From assembly GCF_037893185.1 (NCBI RefSeq), contig NZ_CP140772.1:5456001-5520000 (forward strand): a stretch of DNA of 64,000 nt, read 5' to 3'. The stretch's first letter is position 1; each line of letters starts with the position of its first letter. Source of the stretch: Chitinophaga sp. 180180018-3 (GTDB lineage: Bacteria > Bacteroidota > Bacteroidia > Chitinophagales > Chitinophagaceae). Below are positions 2,216-52,288 of the stretch, piece by piece. Below the pieces are notes generated by a model, which worked only from the letters and a program-made list of their open reading frames with translations, was not told where the DNA came from and ran no database searches. The position numbers and the translations under genes are program-made.

Positions 2216-5200
2216 TTAATGTACCAGTACTTCTTCGGAAGCCTCTACTACCATTGGTTTCCGGCTTATCTTTTCCTGCAGGTACTGGAATATCACATAC
2301 AATACCGGGATCGCAAATACACCCAGTATCACGCCTGTGAGCATACCTCCGGCGGCACCGGTACTGATAGACCGGTTACCCAGGGCGGATGATCCTGTTG
2401 CACGCATCAGCGGCAACAAGCCCGCAATAAAGGCGAAAGAGGTCATGAGAATCGGGCGCAAACGGAGCTTGGCCGCACGTATAGCAGAAGCTACCAATCC
2501 CATACCACTGCGTCTGCGCTGTACGGCGTACTCCACAATCAGGATCGCGTTTTTCGCCAGCAACCCTATCAACATAATCAATCCTACCTGTACATAGATG
2601 TTGTTGTCGATACCAAACAGGTTGATGAATACAAACACACCAAAGATACCCAGCGGAATAGAGAGGATTACTGCCAGTGGCAATATGTAACTCTCATATT
2701 GTGCTGCCAGCAGGAAGTATACAAAGATGAGACACAGGCTAAAGATGATCACCGCCTGGTTACCTGCACTGATCTCTTCCTTCGTCATACCTACCCACTC
2801 ATAGGTAAACCCTCTTGGCAGATACTTCGCTGCTACTTCTTCCACCGCTTTGATGGCGTCGCCACTGCTGTATCCGGGCTTAGCCTGACCGTTGATGGTT
2901 ACAGCGTTGAACAGGTTGTTACGGGTTACTGTTTCAGGTCCGTATACCCGTTGCAGTGATACCATCGTGTTGATGGGTACCATCTCGCCATGCTGATTCT
3001 TTACGTATACCCCATCCAGTGAGGCAGGATCTTTACGGCGGTCCGCATCTGCCTGCACAATCACACGGTAGTACTTACCAAAACGGTTGAAGTCAGACGC
3101 ATACATACTTCCGTAATACACCTGCATGGTTTGCAGGATATCACCCACGGCTACTCCCAGCTGCTTCGCCTTACGATCGTCGATCTCCAGCTCATATTGC
3201 GGATGTCCGTTGTTGAATGTGGTAAATGCAAAGGCAATCTCTTTACGCTGCATCAGCTCCCCAATAAATCCGTAGGCTGTTTGCCCCAGTTTGTCGAGCG
3301 GCCCACCTGTACGGTCCTGCAACACTACTTCGAAACCGGCTACGTTACTGAAACCCGGTACGGTAGGCATATTAAATACGAACACGCTTGCTTCCGGAAT
3401 GCTGGCAAGTTTCTGCTGCAACATGCCCATAAGCGCATTGATGTCTTTGATGGCGCCACGATCAGCATGTGGCTTCAGTTTGATGAAACCTACGCCGGAG
3501 GTGGCACTGCTGGAGTTCGACAGGAAGTTGAAACCTGATACACTCAGATATGCTTTAGACGACTCCAGGTCTTTTACGATATGTTCTACTTTCGCCACTA
3601 CTTCGCGGGTGCGCTCCAGAGAAGATCCGGGAGGCATGGTAACTGAATACACTGCAAATCCCTGGTCCTCTGTAGGAATAAACCCTGATGGCGTTTTGCG
3701 CATCAGCCACACAGTGGCGATGGTAACAATGATCAATCCACCAACAGCTACCCACCTGTTCTTGATCAGGAACTGCAGCCCGTTGCCATATTTAGAGGTC
3801 ATGGCATTGAAGCCGGTATTGAATGCGGTAAAGAAACGCTGTCCGAAACCTTTCTTCGCCGGAGCTCCATGTTTTTCGTCATGTCCGGTTGCGTGGTTAT
3901 TCTTCAATATCAGGGCACACAACGCAGGGCTCAGCGTCAACGCGTTCAGCGCCGAGATAAGGATGGCGATCGCCAGCGTGAAGGCAAACTGCCGGTAAAA
4001 CACGCCCGCCGGGCCTTCCATGAAACCAACAGGAATGAACACGGCCGACATTACCAGCGTAATGGATATAATCGCACCGGATATCTCCTGCATAGACGAT
4101 AAGGTCGCATTCCGCGGATTAGCCCCCCGCTCCATCTTCGCATGCACCGCTTCCACCACCACAATGGCGTCATCCACCACAATACCAATCGCCAGGATAA
4201 GCGCGAACAACGTCAGCAGGTTGATAGAGAACCCAAATAATTTCATGAAGAAGAAAGTACCTACAATGGCTACTGGTACCGCTATCGCAGGGATCAGCGT
4301 AGAACGCAGATCCTGCAGGAAGATGAATACCACAATGAATACCAGGATAAACGCTTCAATCAGCGTGTGTTTCACCTGGTCAATGGATTCGTCGAGGTAT
4401 TCTTTGGTGCTATAGATATTAAAGTACTCGATACCGGTAGGCAAACTCGCGCCTGCTTTCTTCATTAATTTGTTGATATTCTCCTGTATCTCATTGGCGT
4501 TTGATCCTGATGTCTGGTTAATGGCAATACCAATACCATATTTACCATTCACACGGGTATCACTACCATAACTAAAGGAGCCAAATTCCACGCGGGCCAC
4601 ATCTTTCAGCCGTACTACAGAACCATCGGCATTGGCACGCAGAATAATGTCTTCGTACTGCTGGTTCTTGTTCAGCTTTCCTTTATACTTGATTACATAT
4701 TCGAAAGATTCCTTGCTGGACTCTCCGAAACGGCCGGGAGCCGCTTCCAGATTCTGATCGTGGATAGCACCCAACACTTCCTGGGGCGACATATTATACG
4801 CTGTCAGCCTTTCAGGTTTGAGCCAGATACGCATGGAGTAATCCTTCGCGCCAAACACCATCGCCTGGCCTACCCCGTTCACACGCTGGATTTCCGGGAT
4901 GATGTTAATCTTGGCGTAGTTCTGCAGAAATGTTTCGTCGTATTCAGGCTTGTCGCTCATCAGGTTCACCACCATGATCATGCTGGTCTGCTGTTTCTGC
5001 GTACTGATACCTGCCTGCACTACTTCTGCCGGCAGCAGACTGGTAGCTTTCGCTACGCGGTTCTGCACGTTTACGGCAGCCAGATCCGGATTCGTTCCAA
5101 GTTTGAAATAAATGTTCAGGGTCATGGAACCATCGTTGTTGGAGTTGGAGGTCATGTAAGTCATGTTCTCCACACCATTCACCGCCTCTTCTATGGGAGT

Positions 5201-5386
5201 GGCTACAGAACGTGCTACCACTTCCGCGTTGGCGCCCGGATAAGATGCTGTTACCGCAACACTCGGCGGCGCAATTTCCGGGAACTGGCTCATGGGCAGC
5301 GTATACAACGCCAGTATCCCCAGGATGACCAGTATGATGGATATAACTGTGGCCAATACCGGCCGTTCTATAAATTTTCTAAACAT
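2216..5386 (-). CDS. RND multidrug efflux permease, AcrB/MexB (HAE1) family
   Basis: This inner membrane proton-driven pump of 1056 residues has the normal HAE1 length. It begins with MFRKFIERPVLATVISI, the usual first membrane helix. The proton-relay motif GIVVDDAIVVVEAV with the DD pair sits in the fourth helix, and the C-terminal half carries LLAKNAILIVEYA. Two large periplasmic porter/docking loops lie between the membrane blocks. It lies between the adaptor (5486-6661) and the channel (773-2176), all on the minus strand with short gaps, so the three are presumably one transcript. The hydrophobic-drug type (HAE1), not the heavy-metal type (HME), fits best. Confidence 0.95.
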   Translation of the reverse strand: MFRKFIERPVLATVISIILVILGILALYTLPMSQFPEIAPPSVAVTASYPGANAEVVARSVATPIEEAVNGVENMTYMTSNSNNDGSMTLNIYFKLGTNPDLAAVNVQNRVAKATSLLPAEVVQAGISTQKQQTSMIMVVNLMSDKPEYDETFLQNYAKINIIPEIQRVNGVGQAMVFGAKDYSMRIWLKPERLTAYNMSPQEVLGAIHDQNLEAAPGRFGESSKESFEYVIKYKGKLNKNQQYEDIILRANADGSVVRLKDVARVEFGSFSYGSDTRVNGKYGIGIAINQTSGSNANEIQENINKLMKKAGASLPTGIEYFNIYSTKEYLDESIDQVKHTLIEAFILVFIVVFIFLQDLRSTLIPAIAVPVAIVGTFFFMKLFGFSINLLTLFALILAIGIVVDDAIVVVEAVHAKMERGANPRNATLSSMQEISGAIISITLVMSAVFIPVGFMEGPAGVFYRQFAFTLAIAILISALNALTLSPALCALILKNNHATGHDEKHGAPAKKGFGQRFFTAFNTGFNAMTSKYGNGLQFLIKNRWVAVGGLIIVTIATVWLMRKTPSGFIPTEDQGFAVYSVTMPPGSSLERTREVVAKVEHIVKDLESSKAYLSVSGFNFLSNSSSATSGVGFIKLKPHADRGAIKDINALMGMLQQKLASIPEASVFVFNMPTVPGFSNVAGFEVVLQDRTGGPLDKLGQTAYGFIGELMQRKEIAFAFTTFNNGHPQYELEIDDRKAKQLGVAVGDILQTMQVYYGSMYASDFNRFGKYYRVIVQADADRRKDPASLDGVYVKNQHGEMVPINTMVSLQRVYGPETVTRNNLFNAVTINGQAKPGYSSGDAIKAVEEVAAKYLPRGFTYEWVGMTKEEISAGNQAVIIFSLCLIFVYFLLAAQYESYILPLAVILSIPLGIFGVFVFINLFGIDNNIYVQVGLIMLIGLLAKNAILIVEYAVQRRRSGMGLVASAIRAAKLRLRPILMTSFAFIAGLLPLMRATGSSALGNRSISTGAAGGMLTGVILGVFAIPVLYVIFQYLQEKISRKPMVVEASEEVLVH

Positions 5387-5485
5387 ACAAGCAATAGAAT
5401 TTAAGCGTCATCAATCTGATGGCGTTGGGGAAGGATGACTGCACCCGGCATCACCGTGTGCAGTTATCACCTTCGTGATGAAAAA

Positions 5486-6661
5486 TTAGAGCGGCCTCAC
5501 TTTCAACAGGCTGTCGAGCGACATCTGTTGCGGAGCGATCACGGTACCATCGTGCAGGCGGTCCAGACCAGTGTATACGATACGCTGACCAGCTTTAACG
5601 CCTTTCTCTACGAAATAATAGTTACCGCTTTTACCGGCTATAGTGATGGGAATACCAGTAACCTTGTTGCTGTCTGCCACTGCAAATACCATTACTTTAT
5701 CCTGCAGTTCATAAGTAGCTTCTGTGGGTACTATTACCACATCTGCAAACTGTTCAGGCAAACGTACTTTTCCTGTATTACCGGAACGGAGTAACCCGGA
5801 AGTATTCGGGAACGTAGCCCGGAAGCTTACCGCACCCATTGTTTTATCGAACTGTCCTTCCATGGTTTCAATCCGTCCTTTCTCAGGATAAATACTGTTG
5901 TCGGCCAGCTTCAACTCCACTGCAGGCAGGTGTTTCACCTTATCTGCAATTGTATTGCCGGGTGTTTCGTTCTTAAATTTCAGGAACTCGGGTTCGCTCA
6001 TGGAAAAATAAGCATACACCTCGTTTACGTCCGACAATATGGTGAGGGGCTGTGGTTCTGCCCTGCCAACCAACGCGCCTATCTTGTAAGGAATCCTTCC
6101 TATATATCCACTAACAGGAGCCGTGATCAGGGTATACCCTACATTGATGTGAGTAGATCCGAGCTGTGCCTGCGCCTGGCCTACTGCAGCTTTCGCAGCT
6201 TCGTAATTTGCCTGTGCAGTTTTTAGCTGTACATCAGATACTACATTGTTGTTTACCAGCGGCGTAAGCCTGTCTACTTCTACCTTTGCTTTTTCCAGGT
6301 TCGCTTTGGCAGCCTGTAATGAAGCACTGGCATTGCTTTGTTGTTCGCTGTACATCCGGTCGTTGATTTTGAATAAAGGTTGACCAGCTTTTACATAGGC
6401 ACCTTCATCCACATAAATCTTTTCCAGTGTTCCTTCCACCTGTGGGCGGATTTCCACGTTGGTACGGCCTTCCAGCGCTGCGCTGAATTCCCTATAGGTA
6501 GTGGCCGGCACGGTGCTCAGCTTCAGCACAGGCAACGGTGCAGGAGGCGGCGCTTCGTTCTTCGCCTGAGATGCACTGCAGGCCGACATCACAGAAATAA
6601 CGATCAAACTATAAAATAAGCCCGCCGGCAAATTAGCAATTGTTGATTTCAATGGTTTCAT
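5486..6661 (-). CDS. RND efflux periplasmic adaptor, AcrA/MexA family lipoprotein
   Basis: This membrane fusion protein couples the RND pump to the outer membrane channel. The 391 residues begin with a lipoprotein signal ending at MSAC (Cys28), so it is likely anchored in the inner membrane. After it come the split biotinyl-lipoyl half-motifs (VEIRPQVEGTLEKIYVDEG and ITAPVSGYIGRIPYKIGALV) around an alpha-helical hairpin rich in Ala/Gln. It is the first gene of the operon. An AraC regulator gene lies 350 bp upstream on the same strand and is the obvious candidate controller. Confidence 0.94.
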   Translation of the reverse strand: MKPLKSTIANLPAGLFYSLIVISVMSACSASQAKNEAPPPAPLPVLKLSTVPATTYREFSAALEGRTNVEIRPQVEGTLEKIYVDEGAYVKAGQPLFKINDRMYSEQQSNASASLQAAKANLEKAKVEVDRLTPLVNNNVVSDVQLKTAQANYEAAKAAVGQAQAQLGSTHINVGYTLITAPVSGYIGRIPYKIGALVGRAEPQPLTILSDVNEVYAYFSMSEPEFLKFKNETPGNTIADKVKHLPAVELKLADNSIYPEKGRIETMEGQFDKTMGAVSFRATFPNTSGLLRSGNTGKVRLPEQFADVVIVPTEATYELQDKVMVFAVADSNKVTGIPITIAGKSGNYYFVEKGVKAGQRIVYTGLDRLHDGTVIAPQQMSLDSLLKVRPL

Positions 6662-28238: not shown

Positions 28239-29012
28239 TCATTTGTGTTTTCGTGCAAATGCTGCCGGCGTAATACCAGTGTAGCGCTTAAATTCTCTGC
28301 TAAGATGGGATTGATCCGTATAGCCCAGCTCGTGAGCTAAGCCGGCAATATTAACGTCCGGATAATGCCATAATTGGTTTCGCACCTGCTCAAAACGGAT
28401 CAGACCTGACACGTCTTTAACCGTGTAACCGGAAGATTGCTTGAACTTCCTTTCCAGGGTACGAACTGTTGTATGAGCCGCGGCGGCAATCCGGCTTACC
28501 GGTATAGCACCGTTTGCTTCCCTCATGGCAATTCCAGCTTTGAATAGCGTGCTGTCAACGGCCATCGGCAACCGCTTGTACAGGAAATACTCTTTTAGAT
28601 ACGTCACCGCTTCATCTATCCTGCCGGCATGAACGTACTTATTCAACGTGGCATGCAGCCGGGCTATAGGATGCTCAAATATATGTACGCTGTCTTTGCC
28701 GGATGACAGTCCGAGCAAATCAAATACTGTCCACGGATAGCACCTGATACCAATGATTTCCAAACAGGCTTTCGTATTTACAAGAACAGGCTGATTGAGC
28801 AGCCCCATGATAAACGGTGATGGCAATGGTTGCAGGCTTCCATTGAAAAAAATGCTGCAGGTATTTCCGAAATGGAAAATAATTTCTGCGTAGCCGTCGG
28901 GGAGTACTTCAAAAACAGCCGGCGCTTTTCTTTCGTACCAAAAGCATTTTATGGAATCACGTAACGCTTCGGGCGGTTCAAATTCTAAGTGTTGTGTATT
29001 GAAAAACAACAT
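28239..29012 (-). CDS. AraC family regulator with DUF6597-like sensor domain
   Basis: The 257 residues have an N-terminal sensor of the type found in many small Bacteroidota AraC proteins (FWYERKAPAVFEVLPDGYAEIIFHFG). The C-terminal AraC HTH domain reads SRIAAAAHTTVRTLERKFKQ, then INIAGLAHELGYTDQSHLSREF with the signature ITPAAFARKHK. It precedes the FAD monooxygenase gene on the same strand with an 80-bp gap and is probably its regulator. No operator is obvious. Confidence 0.9.
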   Translation of the reverse strand: MLFFNTQHLEFEPPEALRDSIKCFWYERKAPAVFEVLPDGYAEIIFHFGNTCSIFFNGSLQPLPSPFIMGLLNQPVLVNTKACLEIIGIRCYPWTVFDLLGLSSGKDSVHIFEHPIARLHATLNKYVHAGRIDEAVTYLKEYFLYKRLPMAVDSTLFKAGIAMREANGAIPVSRIAAAAHTTVRTLERKFKQSSGYTVKDVSGLIRFEQVRNQLWHYPDVNIAGLAHELGYTDQSHLSREFKRYTGITPAAFARKHK

Positions 29013-29154
29013 ATTTGGGGGGATTTAACGGGTATCAAAACAACAGTGATATGATGTATATTTAAGCAGTAATAATATGCAAAATTAAATAAAATGAGGA
29101 AAATCAGGGGATGCAATTTTTCTCTTCGTGTTGTTACCATTTAAAAACAAAATC

Positions 29155-29655
29155 ATGACGCAGGCTAACAGAGAAAGTTTGTGGAAACAATTTGGTGGTA
29201 GTATCGACATGCTGATCAATGCTGTTTCGGCATATCCTGAAAATCTTTGGTACAAGGAGAAAAAGTTTTTTTACATCTCCTATCATGTAGCTATTTTCCT
29301 GGACTACTACTTAACAATTCCGGCGGGGCCGCTCTCTTCACCGCTTCCGTTCACGCTTAGTGACGATGTTCCGGCTGATGGTATTGACGATATTGTTCCG
29401 GACAGGATTTATAGTCAGGAAGAAATACTGGCTTATTTGCAGGCAAGCAGGACGAAATGCCATGAACTTATCATTGGCATGACGGAGAGTGATTACGCGA
29501 AACAGTGGGTAGAGGTAGATGGTAATAAAGAGATGCCGGTTTTTGAATTGTTCTTATACAACATGCGTCATGTACAACATCATGCGGCGCAGTTGAATAT
29601 GCTGGTGAGAAGGGATACGGGTAATGCGCCACGTTGGGTACGGGCGGCGAGGTAA
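29155..29655 (+). CDS. DinB family (DinB_2/YfiT-like) putative metalloenzyme
   Basis: The 166 residues start from the ATG at 29155; an in-frame GTG at 29128 is less likely. It has the four-helix DinB-like layout: helix 1 with SIDMLINAVSAY, a histidine in ISYHVAIFLDYYL, and the C-terminal NMRHVQHHAAQLNML motif that supplies the typical metal-binding histidines. Members bind metal and act in thiol transfer or unknown reactions; the specific role cannot be read. It is transcribed divergently from the AraC gene. Confidence 0.85.
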   Translation: MTQANRESLWKQFGGSIDMLINAVSAYPENLWYKEKKFFYISYHVAIFLDYYLTIPAGPLSSPLPFTLSDDVPADGIDDIVPDRIYSQEEILAYLQASRTKCHELIIGMTESDYAKQWVEVDGNKEMPVFELFLYNMRHVQHHAAQLNMLVRRDTGNAPRWVRAAR

Positions 29656-29787
29656 AACTATATGCGGTAATTGGGTATAGGAAACGGTGGGGTTCGACAA
29701 TACTCCTGACAACCATGCTATATAATTAGATACAAATAAATTATGTATTAACTTTATTAATAAAAAGCATTCGCCTGTATGAAAAAA

Positions 29788-30759
29788 TCATTGACATTTA
29801 TTTAGGATTTTCTGAGTCAGAACCTTGAACTCTTGAAAACTTTTTTGCACGGCATAAACATGTGCTCCAATTGCCCCATCAGCAGGCTTCAGTAAAAAAA
29901 TTGGTTTGTGTGCATCCATGGACATTGGTGCCAAACTGCGATAATGCTTTAATAATGCTATACAGTTTTCATCATTATCAACTGTTATTGAATCATCAAT
30001 ATTAATGCTTGCTAAAACATACTTTTTGTATACTTCTGGAATCCGGTTCGCCCATTTCAGATACGATTTAACAGGACGACTTTCTTTTGCAGAATATTGC
30101 ATTACAATATAACCCGCTGGTTCCGCCCTATTTTCTGGAATAGTTATTTTCTTAGGGACAAGTCCCTTACGTAAGCTCCACTCTTTCTTCCAATGCTGCA
30201 GAGTTGTACCCAAGTTTTTTATTCCTTGCAATGAGAAAAGGTCCGAAGCCACAGGCATAATGATAAAATCAGAGCTTATAGTAACTGCTCTATTGATTGC
30301 TCCAAGGTTCGGCCCAACGTCTACTAATACCACCTCAGCATTAAATCGGCCCGCTGCCTCATCAATGATTGTTTTAAAAATACTAGTAATACGAAATGAA
30401 TAGGTGTCTCCATTCAAGCATTTCAGCCAAGCATCACTTAATCTATCTTCGAAGGTAGACAAAGCTAAGTTACCCAGAATTACACCCAGCTTATCATTAA
30501 TGGACTCAATATGAACTGGCACAAATGGATCACCATCTACAATTGGTAGAATGGCATCCAAAATCGTAATAGGCTCCTCTTTTTCGTAAATTTCTTCAAA
30601 TCGTTCATTAGTTAGAAACATCGATGTCAAATTGGACTGGGGATCCAAATCTATAGTAATGGTTCGTACACCTAGTTCGGACAACATCCAAGCTACATGA
30701 TAAACTGTGGTAGTTTTTCCCACCCCACCCTTATTATTAAAGAACGTAATTATCCTCAT
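29788..30759 (-). CDS. ParA/Soj family ATPase (chromosomal, paired with Schlafen-domain protein)
   Basis: This is a deviant Walker A ATPase of 323 residues. NNKGGVGKTT is at 8-17 (Lys10 signature and Lys15), TIDLDPQSNLT follows, and VDVGPNLGAINRA has Asp147. The end is longer than in minimal ParA proteins. The start ATG overlaps the upstream stop in TAATG (30757-30761), so translation is coupled to the Schlafen gene. No parB or parS candidate lies nearby, which argues against ordinary plasmid or chromosome partition. Codons are much richer in A/T than in neighbouring genes, suggesting transfer. A defence or mobile-element role is inference. Confidence 0.88.
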   Translation of the reverse strand: MRIITFFNNKGGVGKTTTVYHVAWMLSELGVRTITIDLDPQSNLTSMFLTNERFEEIYEKEEPITILDAILPIVDGDPFVPVHIESINDKLGVILGNLALSTFEDRLSDAWLKCLNGDTYSFRITSIFKTIIDEAAGRFNAEVVLVDVGPNLGAINRAVTISSDFIIMPVASDLFSLQGIKNLGTTLQHWKKEWSLRKGLVPKKITIPENRAEPAGYIVMQYSAKESRPVKSYLKWANRIPEVYKKYVLASINIDDSITVDNDENCIALLKHYRSLAPMSMDAHKPIFLLKPADGAIGAHVYAVQKSFQEFKVLTQKILNKCQ

Positions 30760-31955
30760 TACCAATTGTTATTTATCGGAATAGAAACTTTAAATTTTGT
30801 AGTCAAATCCAAGTGAAAAACAGGCTCTCCATTGCCATTCTTTTCCAACTCAGCTTTAGCTCTTTTAACACCATAGTTAAAGCGATTTACATATCCCAAA
30901 ATTTTCATCGATTCCGCTAATACCACATTTCTATAATCGCTAGCATTCGGAAAGTTCTGCGGCGTAGCCTCACCAAATAAACCACCTGAATTTATAATTT
31001 CAATGCGGTTAGAAAATTCATAGATGTAAATAGGAGCGTTTGATTCATAACTTCTGTGCATGATTGCATTCATCACTAATTCACGTAAAGCCCAGTATGG
31101 ATAGTTACGAATACTTTGTTCCTGAAATGAATCAGCTTTCTGTGGTCGCTCCTTAATAATATTTCCTTTAATAAAATCATCAAGCAAACGTAACTCGGTA
31201 ATTAAGGCTCCAGAAAATTTTTTTTCAAATTCTACATCATCAGTCATTTCCGTCCCCCCAAATTTTATATACTGAATGTAAGCACCAGGCAAATAAAATT
31301 CGGGATTCAAGCCAAATAGCAAAATACCAGCATTTGTTGGACACTTTTCTTTTGGATCATAAAAACGTAATGAAGCTAATTGCTCTTCTATTGTTCGTCC
31401 ATTTTCTGCAAGTGTTTCTTTGTCGACTGCGGACGTTAAATAATTAATCTTAAATAAGTCCACACTGATATCTGCTAATGCTGCACCTAATGCAGGCACT
31501 AGATCAAATGTCTTTGCATTCGAAACTCGTTTTTCCGAAAGAATCCTCTCCTCTTCCACGGAGGCTTTATCTCTCCTTGGGCCGACTCTGATCCAACATC
31601 TTCCGTCATATCTAACCGGAGGGTAAGTGGAAGGCTTAACTTCAATTACAATTACATCACCACCATCTAATTGAAAAATAGGACTTACTATAATCGAAGG
31701 TTGAGGTAAAATTTTACCATTGGTTTTCATCCCTCCGATCTTTTGCAAATCATCATCTGTATATTTCTTTCCAGCTAGGGTACCATCATCATTGACACCA
31801 AGCAAAAGATATCCAGGGCACTTATGATTGGGAAAATCGTTGCTAAACGCGCAAATAGCTTGTCCGAGTTTATCGTCTGCGGTTGACCTAGTCCTCTCTA
31901 CCCGGTCACTTTCCATTGTGCCTATTAACTCTTTTACCTTTTCTACTGTAATCAT
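30759..31955 (-). CDS. AlbA_2 (Schlafen) domain protein with GHKL-like ATPase C-terminus
   Basis: The 398 residues begin with an AlbA_2/Schlafen domain (ESDRVERTRS at 15-24, AICAFSNDFPNHKCPGYLLLGVNDDG, then VRYDGRCWIRVGPRRDKA). The usual E...EFK acidic motif is altered to ERT. The C-terminal half has the HATPase_c_4 signature RELVMNAIMHRSY (Asn296, His300), NRIEIINSGGLFG and RNVVLAESMKILGYVNRFNYG. Such proteins have been called RecG-like or transcriptional regulators, and several are defence genes. It is the first gene of a coupled pair with the ParA-like ATPase. AT-rich codon use sets it off from its surroundings. Confidence 0.87.
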   Translation of the reverse strand: MITVEKVKELIGTMESDRVERTRSTADDKLGQAICAFSNDFPNHKCPGYLLLGVNDDGTLAGKKYTDDDLQKIGGMKTNGKILPQPSIIVSPIFQLDGGDVIVIEVKPSTYPPVRYDGRCWIRVGPRRDKASVEEERILSEKRVSNAKTFDLVPALGAALADISVDLFKINYLTSAVDKETLAENGRTIEEQLASLRFYDPKEKCPTNAGILLFGLNPEFYLPGAYIQYIKFGGTEMTDDVEFEKKFSGALITELRLLDDFIKGNIIKERPQKADSFQEQSIRNYPYWALRELVMNAIMHRSYESNAPIYIYEFSNRIEIINSGGLFGEATPQNFPNASDYRNVVLAESMKILGYVNRFNYGVKRAKAELEKNGNGEPVFHLDLTTKFKVSIPINNNW

Positions 31956-32396
31956 TTGTATTAATTAAGATTAGGTTTAACAAAAATACTCTACTGGATT
32001 CGTTGCAAAATAAACCATAGTAATACATTTGTAATGGTACTCCCTAATAATTTCGTTGAATTATAATTGTGATAAAAGAAAAACTGCAGTAAATAAAATT
32101 TACTAATAATTATTTTATACTACAAAAAAGCCAAAACCTTTCGCGATGTTTCTCTCTTCTCATATTGTATGGTACGAAATTCGAACAATTTCCTCAGTAT
32201 TTAGAGATACAAATAGTATTTTCTGAGAGTCTGCACCTCCTAACATTTGACAACAGCATGGTACTTTCATAACAATGTAGAATAATTGGCTCAATTTATA
32301 CCGAGAATATTGCTTTATTAGAGAGCATTTTCGAACCGCTAGTGTCAAGGAGGCTATTAAATTAATATACAATGTGGATAAAGCTTTCAGAGGAAA
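31956..32396. other. AT-rich region between the Schlafen gene and tRNA-Arg
   Basis: There is no convincing gene in about 440 bp. A possible promoter for the Schlafen gene is listed separately. On the plus strand a stop-bounded frame at about 32279-32403 reads like a protein end (WLNLYREYCFIREHFR, then ASVKEAIKLIYNVDKAFRGN), perhaps a decayed remnant. A 70-residue minus-strand frame overlaps it and is not credible. Confidence 0.4.
31981..32009 (-). promoter_or_regulatory. Possible promoter of the Schlafen/ParA pair
   Basis: On the minus strand TATTTTTG (31981-31988) matches TAnnTTTG, and TTTTG (32005-32009 complement) lies 17 bp upstream, shorter than the 19-21 bp norm. The start codon is 26 bp downstream. 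Confidence 0.45.
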
Positions 32397-32397
32397 T

Positions 32398-32438
32398 AAG
32401 AAAGGACAAACCGATGAAAAACCGATTTGTCCTTTCTT
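32398..32438 (-). terminator. Terminator of tRNA-Arg
   Basis: AAGAAAGGACAAACCGAT (32398-32415) pairs with ACCGATTTGTCCTTTCTT (32421-32438), with two wobble positions near the loop. It starts 3 bp past the tRNA on the minus strand. Confidence 0.75.
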
Positions 32439-32440
32439 CG

Positions 32441-32514
32441 TGTCCCGGATTGGATTCGAACCAATGGCCTACTGCTTAGAAGGCAGTTGCTCTATCCAGC
32501 TGAGCTACCGAGAC
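32441..32514 (-). tRNA. tRNA-Arg(TCT)
   Basis: The minus strand starts GTCTCGG and ends CCGGGAC plus discriminator A. The D-arm is AGCTCAGCTGGATAGAGC, the anticodon loop CTTCTAA (anticodon TCT, codon AGA), and the T-loop GGTTCGAATCC. The 74 nt form a normal cloverleaf with no encoded CCA. The AT-rich Schlafen/ParA pair ends at its 3' side, the usual side for island insertion, though I found no attachment repeat. Confidence 0.95.
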
Positions 32515-32651
32515 TTACACGTTCATTTAATCTCTGAAATGTGAAATAAATTGTTATATTTATCCCGCATTTTGGGAGTGCAAATTTATATAAAAATCTC
32601 TCAATAAATCAAAAATAATTTAATTTTCTTTAAATATAGACTTTGCTCGCT

Positions 32652-48321: not shown

Positions 48322-49303
48322 TACGTCCTGGGCTTACACCAAACTTCTTCCTGAATGCTGTACTAAAGTGTTGGGGAGAAGAATATCCTGCTTGTTCTGC
48401 TATCTGTGATAAAGGTAACAATCCTTCCAGCACCAGTTCCCTGGCGATCTCCAGACGACGGTCGTTCAGATATCCAAAAACAGTGTTATTAAAAACAGTT
48501 TTAAAACCCGATTTAAGCTTGAATTCATTCAGGCCCGCCTTGCGTGAAAGCTGCGCCAGGCTCAATGGTTGTTGTATATGCTCTATCAGAAGATCACGAA
48601 CATAATACAGTTTCTCCACATCTCCGGCAACCATTTTCTCCTTAACAGGCCCATACTGCTCCTGCTCCGCCTGCTCACATTGCAATGCCAGCAGCTCAAT
48701 TACTTTCGACTGCAGAAATAATTTCTTCAATCCTCCCTGGAAACCGGATCCGCGAACATCCTCTATCACACGCGTCATCCGGGGAGTAATACGCGGGTTA
48801 AATTTCTCTGCCAACGCAACTGATCTGTTACCAGCCACGTGATTAGCCAAACCTTCCAGCACCCGGCCGTTGTTTTCTGCCAGCTCCAAAAAACGATCCG
48901 GCGTAAGACCAAGCGCAAAAAGGGTGATGCCCTTCTGCTTCTTCACAGCAGCATTATCCGAAGTGGCCGAAGAATATACCAGGTTATGTTCAAGACTCTT
49001 TAGCTTTAAATCACGTCGGAACCCATCAATAGAGGTGCTAACATCTCCCTGCTCCATAAACATCAACATTACACGTTGCGGTACATCATTTACATGGATA
49101 TAGATATTTTCATACACATCCGCCTGACAACGCACGATGCTGATGCCATCAAAATGTGACTCCTCCATCACAGCTGTACCAAATGAAAGATTTAATTGCT
49201 GTTTGTCTTCTATTATCGCTGTAGAACGCAAATTTTTAAAGTCAAGCGCTGCCGGCTCTGTTAACAGTACATCCCTGGCCTCATTTGTAATCACTACGTC
49301 CAT
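48299..49303 (-). CDS. AraC family regulator, PchR-like
   Basis: The 334 residues have an N-terminal sensor without a known motif and a C-terminal double HTH (SLAQLSRKAGLNEFKLKSGF, FNNTVFGYLNDRRLEIAREL, LSQIAEQAGYSSPQHFSTAF). The GLNEFKLKxGF segment is typical of PchR, the siderophore-responsive activator. It faces a TonB receptor and its lipoprotein 0.6 kb away. The last residues (RIRNIE) are encoded within palindrome B, so the original C-terminus may differ. Confidence 0.88.
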   Translation of the reverse strand: MDVVITNEARDVLLTEPAALDFKNLRSTAIIEDKQQLNLSFGTAVMEESHFDGISIVRCQADVYENIYIHVNDVPQRVMLMFMEQGDVSTSIDGFRRDLKLKSLEHNLVYSSATSDNAAVKKQKGITLFALGLTPDRFLELAENNGRVLEGLANHVAGNRSVALAEKFNPRITPRMTRVIEDVRGSGFQGGLKKLFLQSKVIELLALQCEQAEQEQYGPVKEKMVAGDVEKLYYVRDLLIEHIQQPLSLAQLSRKAGLNEFKLKSGFKTVFNNTVFGYLNDRRLEIARELVLEGLLPLSQIAEQAGYSSPQHFSTAFRKKFGVSPGRIRIRNIE

Positions 49304-49306
49304 AAA

Positions 49307-49345
49307 ATAATCCGTTTCGTATAAGTGATAATCCGTTTGATATAA
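49307..49345 (-). promoter_or_regulatory. Two 18-bp direct repeats before the PchR-like gene
   Basis: ATAATCCGTTTCGTATAA (49307-49324) and ATAATCCGTTTGATATAA (49328-49345) are 21 bp apart, two helical turns. On the minus strand they read ATCAAACGGATTAT-like, just 4 bp before the AraC start codon. A similar motif lies before the TonB receptor gene. Confidence 0.6.
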
Positions 49346-49392
49346 CAGTTATAAGGGGAAACAGTAGCAAATTTGCTAAAAAAATGTATACC

Positions 49393-49605
49393 ATGCTGGG
49401 AATATTCCGGACCAATATTACAACTGTTCACGATAGAAACAATGTAATCAACGCAATTTCCGCGCAATTTACTGTAGATGCCTGCACTGTAGATATCGAA
49501 GACTGCGACAAAGTACTTCGTATCGTAAGCCCCCAATCCCTGACCGAGCAGGCAATTATTGAATTTGTAACCCGCCTGGGGTTCAATTGCGACATCTTGC
49601 AGTGA
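49393..49605 (+). CDS. Small HMA-fold-like protein without CxxC
   Basis: This 70-residue protein starts at ATG 49393 (an ATG at 49384 is also in frame). The pattern of strands and helices (LGIFRTNI, NNVINAISAQF, VDACTVDIED, KVLRIVSP, AIIEFVTRLGF) fits the beta-alpha-beta-beta-alpha-beta fold of heavy-metal-associated domains. It lacks the metal-binding CxxC; the cysteines are in DACTVDIEDCD and FNCD. Short proteins with VDIEDCDKVLRI-type motifs occur widely in this phylum, so I think it is real. Function is unknown. It is divergent from the PchR-like gene. Confidence 0.65.
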   Translation: MLGIFRTNITTVHDRNNVINAISAQFTVDACTVDIEDCDKVLRIVSPQSLTEQAIIEFVTRLGFNCDILQ

Positions 49606-49906
49606 GCAAAATAATAATTTGCCACGAACAAGATAATAATTCGTAAATTACAGATTACGAATTCTGCAATACGTTTTCAATCTTATTTTGCCATCTAATT
49701 AGAGATGAGAACCTAAAATAGTGAAGATAACAACAAAAACGATCTTCACTTTTCCTCCTATAACATCCTCTGCCACTTATTAAAAGCTAACAACTAAAAA
49801 TAACAACTAAAATTAACTTCCGACCTCCGTAGGGGTAACATATTTTTGCTTCGTCATATATGCAAGCGTAAAAACGGAATACTATCATCAAACGGAATTA
49901 GCTTTT
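49606..49906. other. Spacer upstream of the TonB receptor gene
   Basis: There is no gene. It contains the perfect inverted repeat AATTCGTAA/TTACGAATT (49638-49646 and 49655-49663), AT-rich TTAAAAGCTAACAACTAAAA repeats (about 49780-49815), a -7-like TATTTTTG box at 49841-49848 for the receptor gene, and two AAACGGAAT motifs near the start codon. Confidence 0.55.
49872..49898 (+). promoter_or_regulatory. AAACGGAAT direct repeats before the TonB receptor gene
   Basis: AAACGGAAT at 49872-49880 and again at 49890-49898, 18 bp apart and just before the ATG at 49907. The second reads ATCAAACGGAATTA, close to ATCAAACGGATTAT upstream of the PchR-like gene. It may be a shared operator or a shared leader. 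Confidence 0.5.
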
Positions 49907-52288
49907 ATGAAAACTAAAGCAACTATTTGGTTATCCCTGCTCATTTTATTTATAGCGGGTCAGCCAACTGCTGCACAGCAGCGCCGATACACTGTTAATG
50001 GTTATGTAAGAGACAAACAAAACGGTGAAAGCCTTGTTGGCATATCTGTTGGAAAAACCGGCACCAGCCTGGGTACTGTTACTAATCAATACGGATTCTA
50101 CTCCCTCACATTGCCAGCCGGAGAACACGAAATACAGTTCTCCTACATGGGGTATGCTCCCTATAAAACAACGGTCAATCTTACCAAGAACGTTACGATT
50201 GATGTTAAAATGGAAGCTACCAGCAGTCAGCTGAATACCGTCACCATCAACGGTCAGCAACAGGAAAAAACAATCAATACGCTGAACACCAGTATCAATA
50301 AACTGGATATTCAGCAGATGAAAAAAATGCCCACTTTCATGGGAGAAGTGGACGTGCTGAGGGCTATCCAGACATTGCCCGGCGTTAATACCGTTGGAGA
50401 AGGTGCTTCCGGATTCAATGTACGAGGCGGCGCCTCCGATGAAAACCTCATCCTGCTCGATGAAGCCCCGGTATATAACTCCACACACATGCTCGGCTTC
50501 TTCTCCGTTTTCAACCCGGATGCCGTTAAAAGCCTGAACCTGATCAAAGGCGGCTTCCCCGCTGAATATGGCGGCAGAACATCTTCTGTACTCGATATCC
50601 GCATGAAAGATGGTAACGACCAGCATTTCAATGTCAACGGCGGTATCGGTAATATTTTCAGCCGTCTCTCTGTTGAAGGCCCGCTGGTAAAAGATAAAGC
50701 GTCCTTTATTGTGGCCGCCCGCAGATCTTACATTGATATCCTGATGAAGCCTTTCGTGAAGGGAGAAATGAAAGATACCAAACTCAATTTCTATGATCTC
50801 ACCGCAAAGGCGAACTATAAATTCGATAAAAATAATACGCTCTTCGTCAGCGGATATTTTGGCAGAGACGTATTTGGGGTTGGCAAAGATGTAAATATGA
50901 ACTGGGGTAACAGCACCGCAACCGTACGCTGGAACCACGTTTTTACTAACCGCCTTTTCCTTAACCTCACTACTTATTACAGTAAGTACGACTATAGCCT
51001 GAAATTCAGCAACAATACTTCCAAAAAGGAAAATGAAACCACCCAGAAGTATGACTGGACTTCCAACATTATCAACTATGGTCTGAAACCATCTTTCACC
51101 TACTACATCAATTCCGCCAACAGCCTGCATTTCGGGGTTCAGGGTGTTTATTATACCTTCAAACCAGGCACTGGTATCGGTACTGATGGCAACACGGAGC
51201 AGGTTAAGCACCTGCCTGATCAGCATGCACTCGAATCTGCTGTTTATCTTGACCACGAATACAAACCCAGCAAGAAATTTGGCATCCAGTACGGTGGCCG
51301 CCTTTCTGTGTATCAATTCCTGGGAGATGGTACTGCCTACTATTATGCAGACACTACCCCCGGCATCCGGAAAAGGCTGATTGGCACGAAAGAATATGGT
51401 GCTAATGAGAGAATAAAAGGATATTACTACTTTGAACCAAGAATCAGTGCACGCTACGCCTTCACTGACGAACATGCCGTTAAAGTAGCCTATAGCAGAA
51501 CTTCCCAGTTCATGCACCAGCTCTCTAATACAGCCTCTCCTACACCACTGGATATCTGGACACCAAGTACCAATAATATCAAACCCGCCGTTTCTGATCA
51601 GTATACTGCCGGCTATTTCTATAATGCTCCCAACGACTCTTATGAACTGTCTGCAGAAGTGTTTTACAAGACAACAGAAAACCAGCTGGATTATATCGAC
51701 AATGCCGACCTGCAACTGAATCCTCTTATTGAAGCGGACCTCCTCGCATCAAAAGGCCGTGCTTACGGACTGGAGCTGTACGCTAAGAAAGATATCGGAG
51801 CTACTACCGGCTGGATCAGCTATACCCTTTCCCGCACCGAAAGGAAAACTCCGGGCATCAGCCTGAACGAATGGTTCCTCAATCGATACGACCGTACACA
51901 TAACCTGAATATCGTAGCCACCCACACCTTCACCAAACGCCTCTCTGCATCCGCCAACTGGGTGTTTGCTTCAGGTACTCCCGGTACTTATGCCGATAAC
52001 CGGCTCGAGTTCCAGGGCTGGGACATCCCTTATAACAGCACCGATAAGCGTAACAACTACCGCCTGCCGGCATACCACCGGCTCGACCTGTCTGTTACCC
52101 TGAAAGGCAAACAACTGAAACGCTGGAAAGGAGAATGGGTATTTTCACTGTATAACGTGTATGCCCGCAGAAATGCATATACCATCTACTTTAAACAAAA
52201 TAAGGACGATCCCTCCAAGAGGGAAGCCACACGCTTGTCTATCATAGGTTCTATCATCCCTGGTATCACTTACAACTTTAAGTTCTAA
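49907..52288 (+). CDS. TonB-dependent receptor with carboxypeptidase-like N-terminal domain
   Basis: This outer membrane active importer has 793 residues. The signal peptide ends near TAAQQ, then a carboxypeptidase-D-like domain (VNGYVRDKQNGESLVGISVG), plug (LRAIQTLPGVNTVGEGASGF, NVRGGASDENLILLDEAPV) and barrel ending in GITYNFKF. Its length suits a siderophore or metal receptor rather than SusC. It is paired with a DUF4249 lipoprotein 21 bp downstream and probably controlled by the PchR-like regulator. The substrate is not visible. Confidence 0.94.
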   Translation: MKTKATIWLSLLILFIAGQPTAAQQRRYTVNGYVRDKQNGESLVGISVGKTGTSLGTVTNQYGFYSLTLPAGEHEIQFSYMGYAPYKTTVNLTKNVTIDVKMEATSSQLNTVTINGQQQEKTINTLNTSINKLDIQQMKKMPTFMGEVDVLRAIQTLPGVNTVGEGASGFNVRGGASDENLILLDEAPVYNSTHMLGFFSVFNPDAVKSLNLIKGGFPAEYGGRTSSVLDIRMKDGNDQHFNVNGGIGNIFSRLSVEGPLVKDKASFIVAARRSYIDILMKPFVKGEMKDTKLNFYDLTAKANYKFDKNNTLFVSGYFGRDVFGVGKDVNMNWGNSTATVRWNHVFTNRLFLNLTTYYSKYDYSLKFSNNTSKKENETTQKYDWTSNIINYGLKPSFTYYINSANSLHFGVQGVYYTFKPGTGIGTDGNTEQVKHLPDQHALESAVYLDHEYKPSKKFGIQYGGRLSVYQFLGDGTAYYYADTTPGIRKRLIGTKEYGANERIKGYYYFEPRISARYAFTDEHAVKVAYSRTSQFMHQLSNTASPTPLDIWTPSTNNIKPAVSDQYTAGYFYNAPNDSYELSAEVFYKTTENQLDYIDNADLQLNPLIEADLLASKGRAYGLELYAKKDIGATTGWISYTLSRTERKTPGISLNEWFLNRYDRTHNLNIVATHTFTKRLSASANWVFASGTPGTYADNRLEFQGWDIPYNSTDKRNNYRLPAYHRLDLSVTLKGKQLKRWKGEWVFSLYNVYARRNAYTIYFKQNKDDPSKREATRLSIIGSIIPGITYNFKF

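Follow-up and report, generated by a model that had tools for sequence, protein, structure and literature searches.

A Schlafen–ParA gene pair from Chitinophaga, a candidate two-gene immunity module whose ATPase family also occurs with other effectors

We analysed a 64,000-nucleotide stretch of the single-contig genome (8.13 Mb) of Chitinophaga sp. 180180018-3 (NZ_CP140772.1, positions 5,456,001 to 5,520,000 of the forward strand; hereafter, the window), and in it two overlapping genes that encode a Schlafen-type (SLFN) protein and a ParA-type ATPase. The two genes form a near-obligate and patchily distributed pair, which at part of its loci lies among restriction or other defence genes, and relatives of the ATPase are joined to SIR2, RelA/SpoT or HEPN proteins. 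We consider that SLFN-ParA is probably, though far from surely, a mobile immunity module of two genes that acts by abortive infection, with ParA as sensor or switch and the Schlafen protein as RNase effector. The original prediction, made from the sequence and its open reading frames (ORFs), had singled out the pair as a candidate undescribed defence module.

Two intact, overlapping genes with conserved active sites

Both ORFs (29788-31955, reverse strand) are intact, and Pfam and the coordinates agree with the original prediction of an AlbA_2 (Schlafen) and GHKL-like protein overlapping a ParA through TAATG:

30759..31955, reverse strand: SLFN_AlbA_2 and HATPase_c_4 protein, 398 amino acids; predicted endoribonuclease effector with a GHKL-type ATP-binding domain; triad E15/E20/D56
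29788..30759, reverse strand: ParA-type (deviant Walker A) ATPase, 323 amino acids; Pfam AAA_31/CbiA, conserved Walker residues, PDB 3pg5
30757..30761, reverse strand: TAATG overlap in which the SLFN gene stop and the parA start ATG share one base (sequence, translation)

The SLFN protein matches SLFN_AlbA_2 at residues 15-131 (E 9e-16, 58.9 bits against a Pfam gathering score of 25.3) and HATPase_c_4 at residues 307-391 (E 1e-13). Its fold is Schlafen-like, and its best match in both sequence and structure is 3lmm (DIP2311 of Corynebacterium diphtheriae). The original prediction held that the usual E...EFK acid motif is changed. Across 28 aligned SLFN proteins, that of the window included, E15, E20 and D56 are invariant (28/28) and the change is limited to the flanking residues past E20, where RT stands for FK: position 21 is R in 25 proteins and K, W or F in one each, and position 22 is T in 22 and K in 6. 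The three carboxylates are spaced by 5 and 36 residues, against 5 and 38 in SLFN13-like proteins, a spacing that we count as SLFN13-like; the triad of SLFN13 is catalytic, as passages of PMC5862951 describe. From its sequence the protein is predicted to be an endoribonuclease effector. Source databases name its relatives RNA-binding domain-containing or RecG-like.

The ATPase matches AAA_31/CbiA (Pfam, E 8e-28) and has the intact Walker motifs of a ParA/Soj-type enzyme: all 32 aligned proteins have K15, T16, D37, D39 and D147, and 31 have K10. The closest PDB entry is 3pg5 (DIP2308; E 6e-30), Soj/ParA structures rank next, and the mean predicted local distance difference test score (pLDDT) of the structure model is 91.

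The two genes travel together

In one genome collection, among contigs with the ParA, 21 of 24 loci (loci and genomes carry our L and G numbers) have SLFN as the gene immediately upstream, that of L009 being truncated by the contig end; the remaining three are a whole ParA with no SLFN (L021) and two ParA fragments (L028, L030). The ParA family occurs in 25 of 395 Bacteroidota genomes (E 1e-25), the same 25 being found with a profile at 1e-45. There SLFN adjoins all 19 assessable ParA places of at least 250 bits, a twentieth place being cut off by the contig edge; these include an SLFN fragment whose ParA neighbour has one stop (G376) and an SLFN whose ParA neighbour has two (G327). In the other direction, ParA adjoins 19 of the 20 SLFN places of at least 270 bits, and the ParA of G092 is broken. 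The intact 402-amino-acid SLFN of G335 (L108) has no ParA within the retrieved 17 kb, and six weaker SLFN matches (91-111 bits) fall in genomes with no ParA match at 1e-25. Within the genus of the window, 3 of 35 other genomes have ParA matches (1e-40), two of them with SLFN. The pair is thus near-obligate and patchily distributed, so that the co-occurrence count proposed with the original prediction came out in its favour.

Four loci hold the pair or its ParA at 65-70% identity on contigs labelled Altarchaeum/Altiarchaeales (L018, L020, L021, L030); L018 and the SLFN-less L021 have neighbours in common.

The wider ParA family has exchanged its partner

Relatives of the ParA on viral contigs were followed through the best 80 of 427 matches, near-copies included, which make up 70 ParA clusters at 90% identity. 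The neighbour is RelA/SpoT in 20 of these loci, SIR2 in 17, HEPN in 7 and SLFN in 2, while 5 reach the contig end and in 29 the contig continues with no recognised partner. By cluster, the counts are RelA 17 (one mixed), SIR2 15, HEPN 7, SLFN 2, and none or edge 29. SIR2, RelA/SpoT or HEPN stands directly downstream of ParA (44/80) and SLFN upstream (2/80), and the commonest spacing between ParA and partner is a 4-base overlap (21 of the 46 partnered loci). The same exchange is seen elsewhere. On Bacteroidota chromosomes, distant ParAs have SIR2_2 (L085), RelA_SpoT (L086) or HEPN_RiboL-PSP (L089) partners by Pfam. The family matches 32 plasmid and 9 phage records, and 17 such regions were inspected: six have a SIR2 partner (L113, L115, L116, L122-L124), three HEPN (L110, which is phage Pf1, L111, L121), one RelA/SpoT (L125), and seven no recognised partner (L109, L112, L114, L117-L120).

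Viral-contig partners were named by phmmer against chosen seeds. All 19 partners put to Pfam scored above cut-off (SIR2_2 7, RelA_SpoT 5, HEPN 7), nine of them from viral contigs (L136, L143, L156, L159, L164, L179, L183, L190, L198) and ten from other loci (L085, L086, L089, L110, L111, L121-L125); the remaining 37 viral-contig partners were named by phmmer alone. The expected residues are present throughout the viral-contig set: R-x4-5-H in 7 of 7 HEPN proteins, NFD and KxHG in 17 of 17 SIR2 proteins, and a short D-x2-G-x-R pattern in 20 of 20 RelA partners.

We then placed partner labels on a tree of 100 ParAs and 3 outgroups (two ParA/Soj proteins of the window's own genome and one plasmid ParA), rooted on the outgroups and built by a quick method with no bootstrap. 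The sample was picked from the loci, with near-duplicates and several SLFN loci omitted; a filter for stops or a length <280 dropped none. The family separates from the three outgroups, L126 among them on a very long branch, with support 100. The labels need 9 changes, outgroup included, against a mean of 59.5 when shuffled. SLFN versions form one clade (support 100) and HEPN versions another (97), while SIR2 accounts for 2 changes, RelA for 4 and 'none' for 7, the last label being overstated because three contigs end just after ParA (L160, L161, L163) and the partner frame of L146 looks broken.

Several members of the family deserve mention in their own right. Phage Pf1 (L110, AY324828.1) has an unannotated HEPN_RiboL-PSP ORF of 175 amino acids at 4013-4540 on the forward strand (Pfam, E 2e-9), overlapping the end of the ParA-like orf317. 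Solitary family ParA genes occur on phages or prophage-like stretches in L109 (phage ST160), L119 (E. coli) and L112. That of ST160 is downstream of the repressor gene c2 and in the same direction, and lysogens may therefore express it. Among 5426 genomes, 2878 match parts of the yfdP-containing E. coli stretch L119:3900-7000, and 60 have at least 80% of it. In L116 (a Salmonella plasmid, 2860-5919), L186 and L188 an upstream gene, ParA and SIR2 stand in a tight row; annotation or Pfam identifies the first gene of the row in L116 and in L186 as a DNA methyltransferase. Three ORFs beside family ParAs (L131:3092-3943, L132:5051-5827, L180:5062-5730) have no Pfam match at E 0.001 and are possible further effectors.

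Defence genes beside the pair

At 5 of the 24 genome-collection loci the pair sits within a complete or fragmentary Type III restriction operon: the order is mod-SLFN-ParA-res in L025 and L027, and parts of such an operon remain in L012, L022 and L023. Seven loci of one genus have pieces of HmaA beside the pair, three of them also pieces of HmaB. The arrangement HmaA-SLFN-ParA-HmaB is seen in L095 (HmaA cut by the contig end) and L096 (HmaB partial), with remnants in the five others. On viral contig L127 the order is SLFN-ParA-PglZ, the pair overlapping the PglZ gene (E 1.9e-281). Two genes downstream of the pair, L102 has Type I restriction genes and L101 a PLD/Snf2-type helicase. Where mod or HmaA has internal deletions (L012, L092, L099, L100), the adjoining SLFN-ParA pair is still open.

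As a control, nearest and farther neighbours were compared at 37 SLFN-ParA loci, with the window, L090, L091, L108, L127 and L128 set aside. The 69 nearest genes include matches to HmaA (6), REase_III (4), MTase_III (4) and HmaB (1); among the 96 farther genes, MTase_I models match up to 3 and other families once each. Of some 60 families these tallies list 25, more than one family can match a single protein and the Hma cases come from one genus, so we claim neither an exact gene count nor significance for them.

The pair itself corresponds to no catalogued system. For neither window protein did an NCBIfam equivalog reach its cut-off, and no model in PADLOC-DB 2.0.0 spans both proteins at full length, in keeping with the original prediction, which had recognised no named defence system. 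The partial PADLOC matches are to a pAgo model, to two Aga models and, over a mere 41-48 residues of ParA, to PDC-M28B. We rejected membership of the pAgo system (PDLC02394), where SLFN/HATPase residues 25-381 align with profile positions 52-424 of 1121, which points to a shared SLFN-type part. A decayed restriction system in the window was likewise rejected: of four tblastn queries, a Type III Mod, a Res, HmaA and HmaB, which were the only system types tried, none had a significant match (best E 0.17).

A proposed mechanism and its alternatives

From the pairing, the overlap, the conserved residues, the patchy distribution, the defence-gene setting of some loci and the exchange of effectors we infer how such a module might work. 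The Schlafen protein would be the effector, an endoribonuclease acting most likely on tRNA or rRNA, whose GHKL-type domain would bind ATP and gate the nuclease. The ParA-family ATPase would be the sensor or switch, holding the effector idle in a resting nucleotide-bound or DNA-bound state. Infection could alter that state, through phage DNA replication, loss of the nucleoid or the blocking of a restriction system nearby, and thereby release or activate the effector; RNA cleavage would then stop translation and phage growth. Control by ParA may be inhibition, as in toxin-antitoxin pairs, or activation. A sensor or switch with exchangeable effectors is suggested because a single ATPase family, with a near-fixed overlap, is joined to different cell-arresting enzymes, on mobile elements and partly in defence loci. 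Whether the whole family forms one class, in which a ParA-type ATPase would be a common infection sensor coupled to interchangeable Schlafen, SIR2-type, RelA/SpoT and HEPN effectors, is a serious possibility that we stop short of calling probable; with the same reserve, such a class would span chromosomes, plasmids, phages and prophages, and contigs labelled archaeal.

Some of the evidence weighs against an immunity module. Beside the pair, 19 of the 24 genome-collection loci, and the window as well, have no Type III or Hma match. Restriction methylases are also found among the farther genes of the same loci, so that local enrichment is shown for the operon-embedded cases only. The 29 of 80 viral-contig ParAs that stand without a recognised partner imply that some family members may do something else. 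The original call of a defence module stands in part: co-occurrence, patchiness and the restriction or other defence genes at some loci bear it out, the changed catalytic motif and the tRNA as an island's end do not hold, and the defensive activity is a prediction.

The alternatives differ in how they read the same facts. If the pair were a toxin-antitoxin system, SLFN (or HEPN, SIR2, RelA) would be the toxin and ParA its antitoxin, by binding or phosphorylation, any defence following the loss of ParA. Toxin-like effectors and a fixed gene order with overlap are what such a system would have, and the same proposal was made for the HEPN/ParA dyad in 2013 (passages of PMC3710099). We nevertheless hold it rather unlikely. 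Were ParA a required antidote, the intact SLFN of G335 with no ParA nearby and the open SLFN of G327 beside a two-stop ParA would be hard to tolerate, an argument of mild weight as there are two cases only, and ParAs with no recognised partner are common on phages and plasmids. Unlikely, too, is a guard module in the manner of PrrC, which would monitor one of the Type III, Hma and PglZ systems, firing its RNase once a phage disables that system, stand-alone copies being degenerate or guarding otherwise. The pairs embedded between mod and res or between HmaA and HmaB, and the SLFN-ParA-PglZ row, would suit this; the 19 loci free of Type III or Hma proteins would not, nor would the persistence of the pair where mod or HmaA is internally deleted.

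That the AlbA_2/HATPase protein is a nucleic-acid-binding regulator, positioned or regulated by ParA and with no immune function, seems to us quite improbable. The database names of its relatives and its HATPase_c_4 domain would fit a regulator, whereas a catalytic triad invariant in every aligned protein and a patchy, partly defence-linked distribution would not. Least of all do we favour a locus for DNA partition or maintenance of a mobile element, which we regard as very improbable in spite of the ParA fold, the Soj/ParA structures that follow 3pg5 and the relatives on plasmids. No third gene recurs beside the pair in more than 6 of 49 clustered loci, whose neighbours are partly annotated, and so a conserved ParB-like partner seems to be lacking; for the window, the original prediction had noted no ParB nearby. 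Moreover, the ParA family stands apart from the ParA/Soj and plasmid outgroups, its partners are toxin-like enzymes, and the SLFN protein has no match at E 1e-20 in 72,556 plasmid records; on these grounds we also set aside plasmid partition. The pair does co-occur in other genomes, a point on which the original prediction could have failed.

If the family is such a class with ParA as its common sensor, a partition-type, DNA-binding ATPase would have come to sense DNA that is foreign or altered, and ParA ATPases, known for moving DNA, would double as a reusable trigger of cell-arresting immunity. The four effector types would then be matched test cases, with RNA cleavage, NAD loss and alarmone synthesis as read-outs that make the trigger testable. 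A function would also be suggested for the uncharacterised structures 3lmm and 3pg5, and for orf317 of phage Pf1 with its unannotated HEPN neighbour.

Relation to known systems

Both best structural matches come from C. diphtheriae, DIP2311 (3lmm) for SLFN and DIP2308 (3pg5) for ParA. The gene numbers are three apart, and judged from these numbers alone a related actinobacterial SLFN/ParA locus is likely there. 3lmm is longer (583 amino acids) and its sequence match lies mainly in the HATPase part; the molecules of both entries are labelled uncharacterised. Among systems of similar architecture, the PrrC anticodon nuclease is embedded in a Type I restriction locus, much as the predicted RNase here is embedded in restriction operons, although PrrC and SLFN-ParA are, we take it, different protein families.

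The nearest precedent is the dyad of a HEPN protein (MAE_18760 family) and a ParA/Soj ATPase predicted by Anantharaman et al. in 2013 to be toxin-antitoxin-like (passages of PMC3710099), likewise a two-gene unit of a ParA/Soj-like ATPase and an RNase toxin domain. The HEPN-ParA loci found here are one clade inside the same ParA family, and one of the seven HEPN partners tested (L183) weakly matches a MAE_28990/MAE_18760-like HEPN model, below cut-off. In the window, by contrast, the effector is Schlafen, lies upstream of ParA and belongs with another ParA branch. Bacterial RNases composed of Schlafen, a minimal histidine kinase and a winged helix-turn-helix (wHTH), catalogued in 2026 beside BREX and BREX-related systems (as set out in parts of PMC12839542), have in common with our protein an SLFN and a GHKL-type domain and close linkage to defence core genes; they carry the wHTH, whereas Pfam finds none in the window protein. 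ParA as a whole word is absent from the main text of that paper. MinD/ParA-like domains also occur in predicted nucleoside triphosphate-dependent conflict systems, where, in the passages of PMC7159879 on them, they are effector domains predicted to be inactive; the ParA of the window keeps its Walker residues and is a partner protein of its own. As in the CapRel/toxSAS toxin-antitoxin systems, RelA/SpoT-type enzymes are found at loci of related ParAs; CapRel(SJ46), however, consists of a single fused protein (per the relevant part of PMC9712102), whereas the RelA/SpoT partners here have a separate ParA. On the basis of one paper, PMC9712102, whose lone whole-word 'Para' is a promoter name, we rejected a RelA-ParA link within the toxSAS literature.

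Searches of an open-access library, preprints outside its scope, listed no paper on SLFN-ParA, ParA-SIR2 or ParA-RelA units and no report joining the SLFN, SIR2 and RelA/SpoT versions. The original prediction is incomplete in that the pair does not stand alone: it belongs to a family of ParA-plus-effector units, another branch of which, with HEPN, had been predicted in 2013. What was known is the HEPN-ParA dyad prediction and the BREX-side SLFN RNases; as far as these searches reach, SLFN-ParA and the joined partner family are new, with a real chance that the joined family is a new class.

A possible experimental hint, which we treat as a lead only, comes from the Salmonella Gifsy-1 genes STM14_3218-3220, which include a ParA-like gene and are needed for RtcR activation after DNA damage (here and below, passages of PMC9879122). 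RtcR binds cleaved tRNA according to earlier work cited there, and deletion of the three genes raises phage titres 2- to 4-fold. Insertions in STM14_3218 are possibly polar on the next genes, and the authors leave the responsible gene among the three undecided; at 840 bp, STM14_3218 is shorter than this ParA family.

Genomic setting of the pair

The pair is flanked by DinB_2 and UDG genes (Pfam), and 29717-32642 contains no ORF of at least 80 amino acids other than its own two. Upstream of it lie:

31981..32009, reverse strand: promoter-like site of Bacteroidota type, TTTG-N17-TATTTTTG, about 25 bp upstream of the SLFN start (script match)
32398..32438, reverse strand: terminator-like hairpin 3' of the tRNA gene, between it and the pair
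32440..32514, reverse strand: tRNA-Arg(TCT) (ARAGORN), the conserved edge of a variable spot

The promoter consensus TTTG-N17-TATTTTTG is one that we take to be of Bacteroidota type. It matches five sites in the window, one on the forward and four on the reverse strand, and a promoter-like scan of the pair region found 7 against 11.6 in shuffles, no excess over chance.

The original prediction had the pair ending by the tRNA, as at an island's end. The tRNA lies 5' (upstream) of the operon with the hairpin between, so that the pair begins beside it. UDG was searched for and found in 59 other relatives, 15 of which were fetched: in all 15, tRNA-Arg, UDG and an acyltransferase stand together (Pfam names) while the tRNA's other side varies. 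The locus is accordingly a variable spot with differing cargo in relatives, rather than a demonstrated integration site. In G017 this spot is occupied by the pair, as in the window. In G460 the site between DinB and the tRNA is taken by a HEC-01A/HEC-01B candidate defence pair (L270:5508-7255, reverse strand; PADLOC E 1e-148 and 9e-71), and in G453 by a gene of 157 amino acids with no PADLOC match. A tRNA-integrated island was rejected, as relatives carry different cargo at the spot and 29000-32640 holds no attachment-site repeat, but only short imperfect direct repeats; no long direct repeat and no integrase adjoin the pair.

In composition the pair stands out as the original prediction had said, more A/T-rich than the flanking genes. 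Its GC contents (0.374 and 0.381) are the two lowest of the 40 window ORFs of at least 150 amino acids (mean 0.470, standard deviation 0.034), and so is its GC at third codon positions (z-scores -3.3 and -2.8). A near relative of the window genome is Chitinophaga sp. sic0106. A second low-GC kilobase (0.382) lies at 49001-50000 of the window, outside the pair locus.

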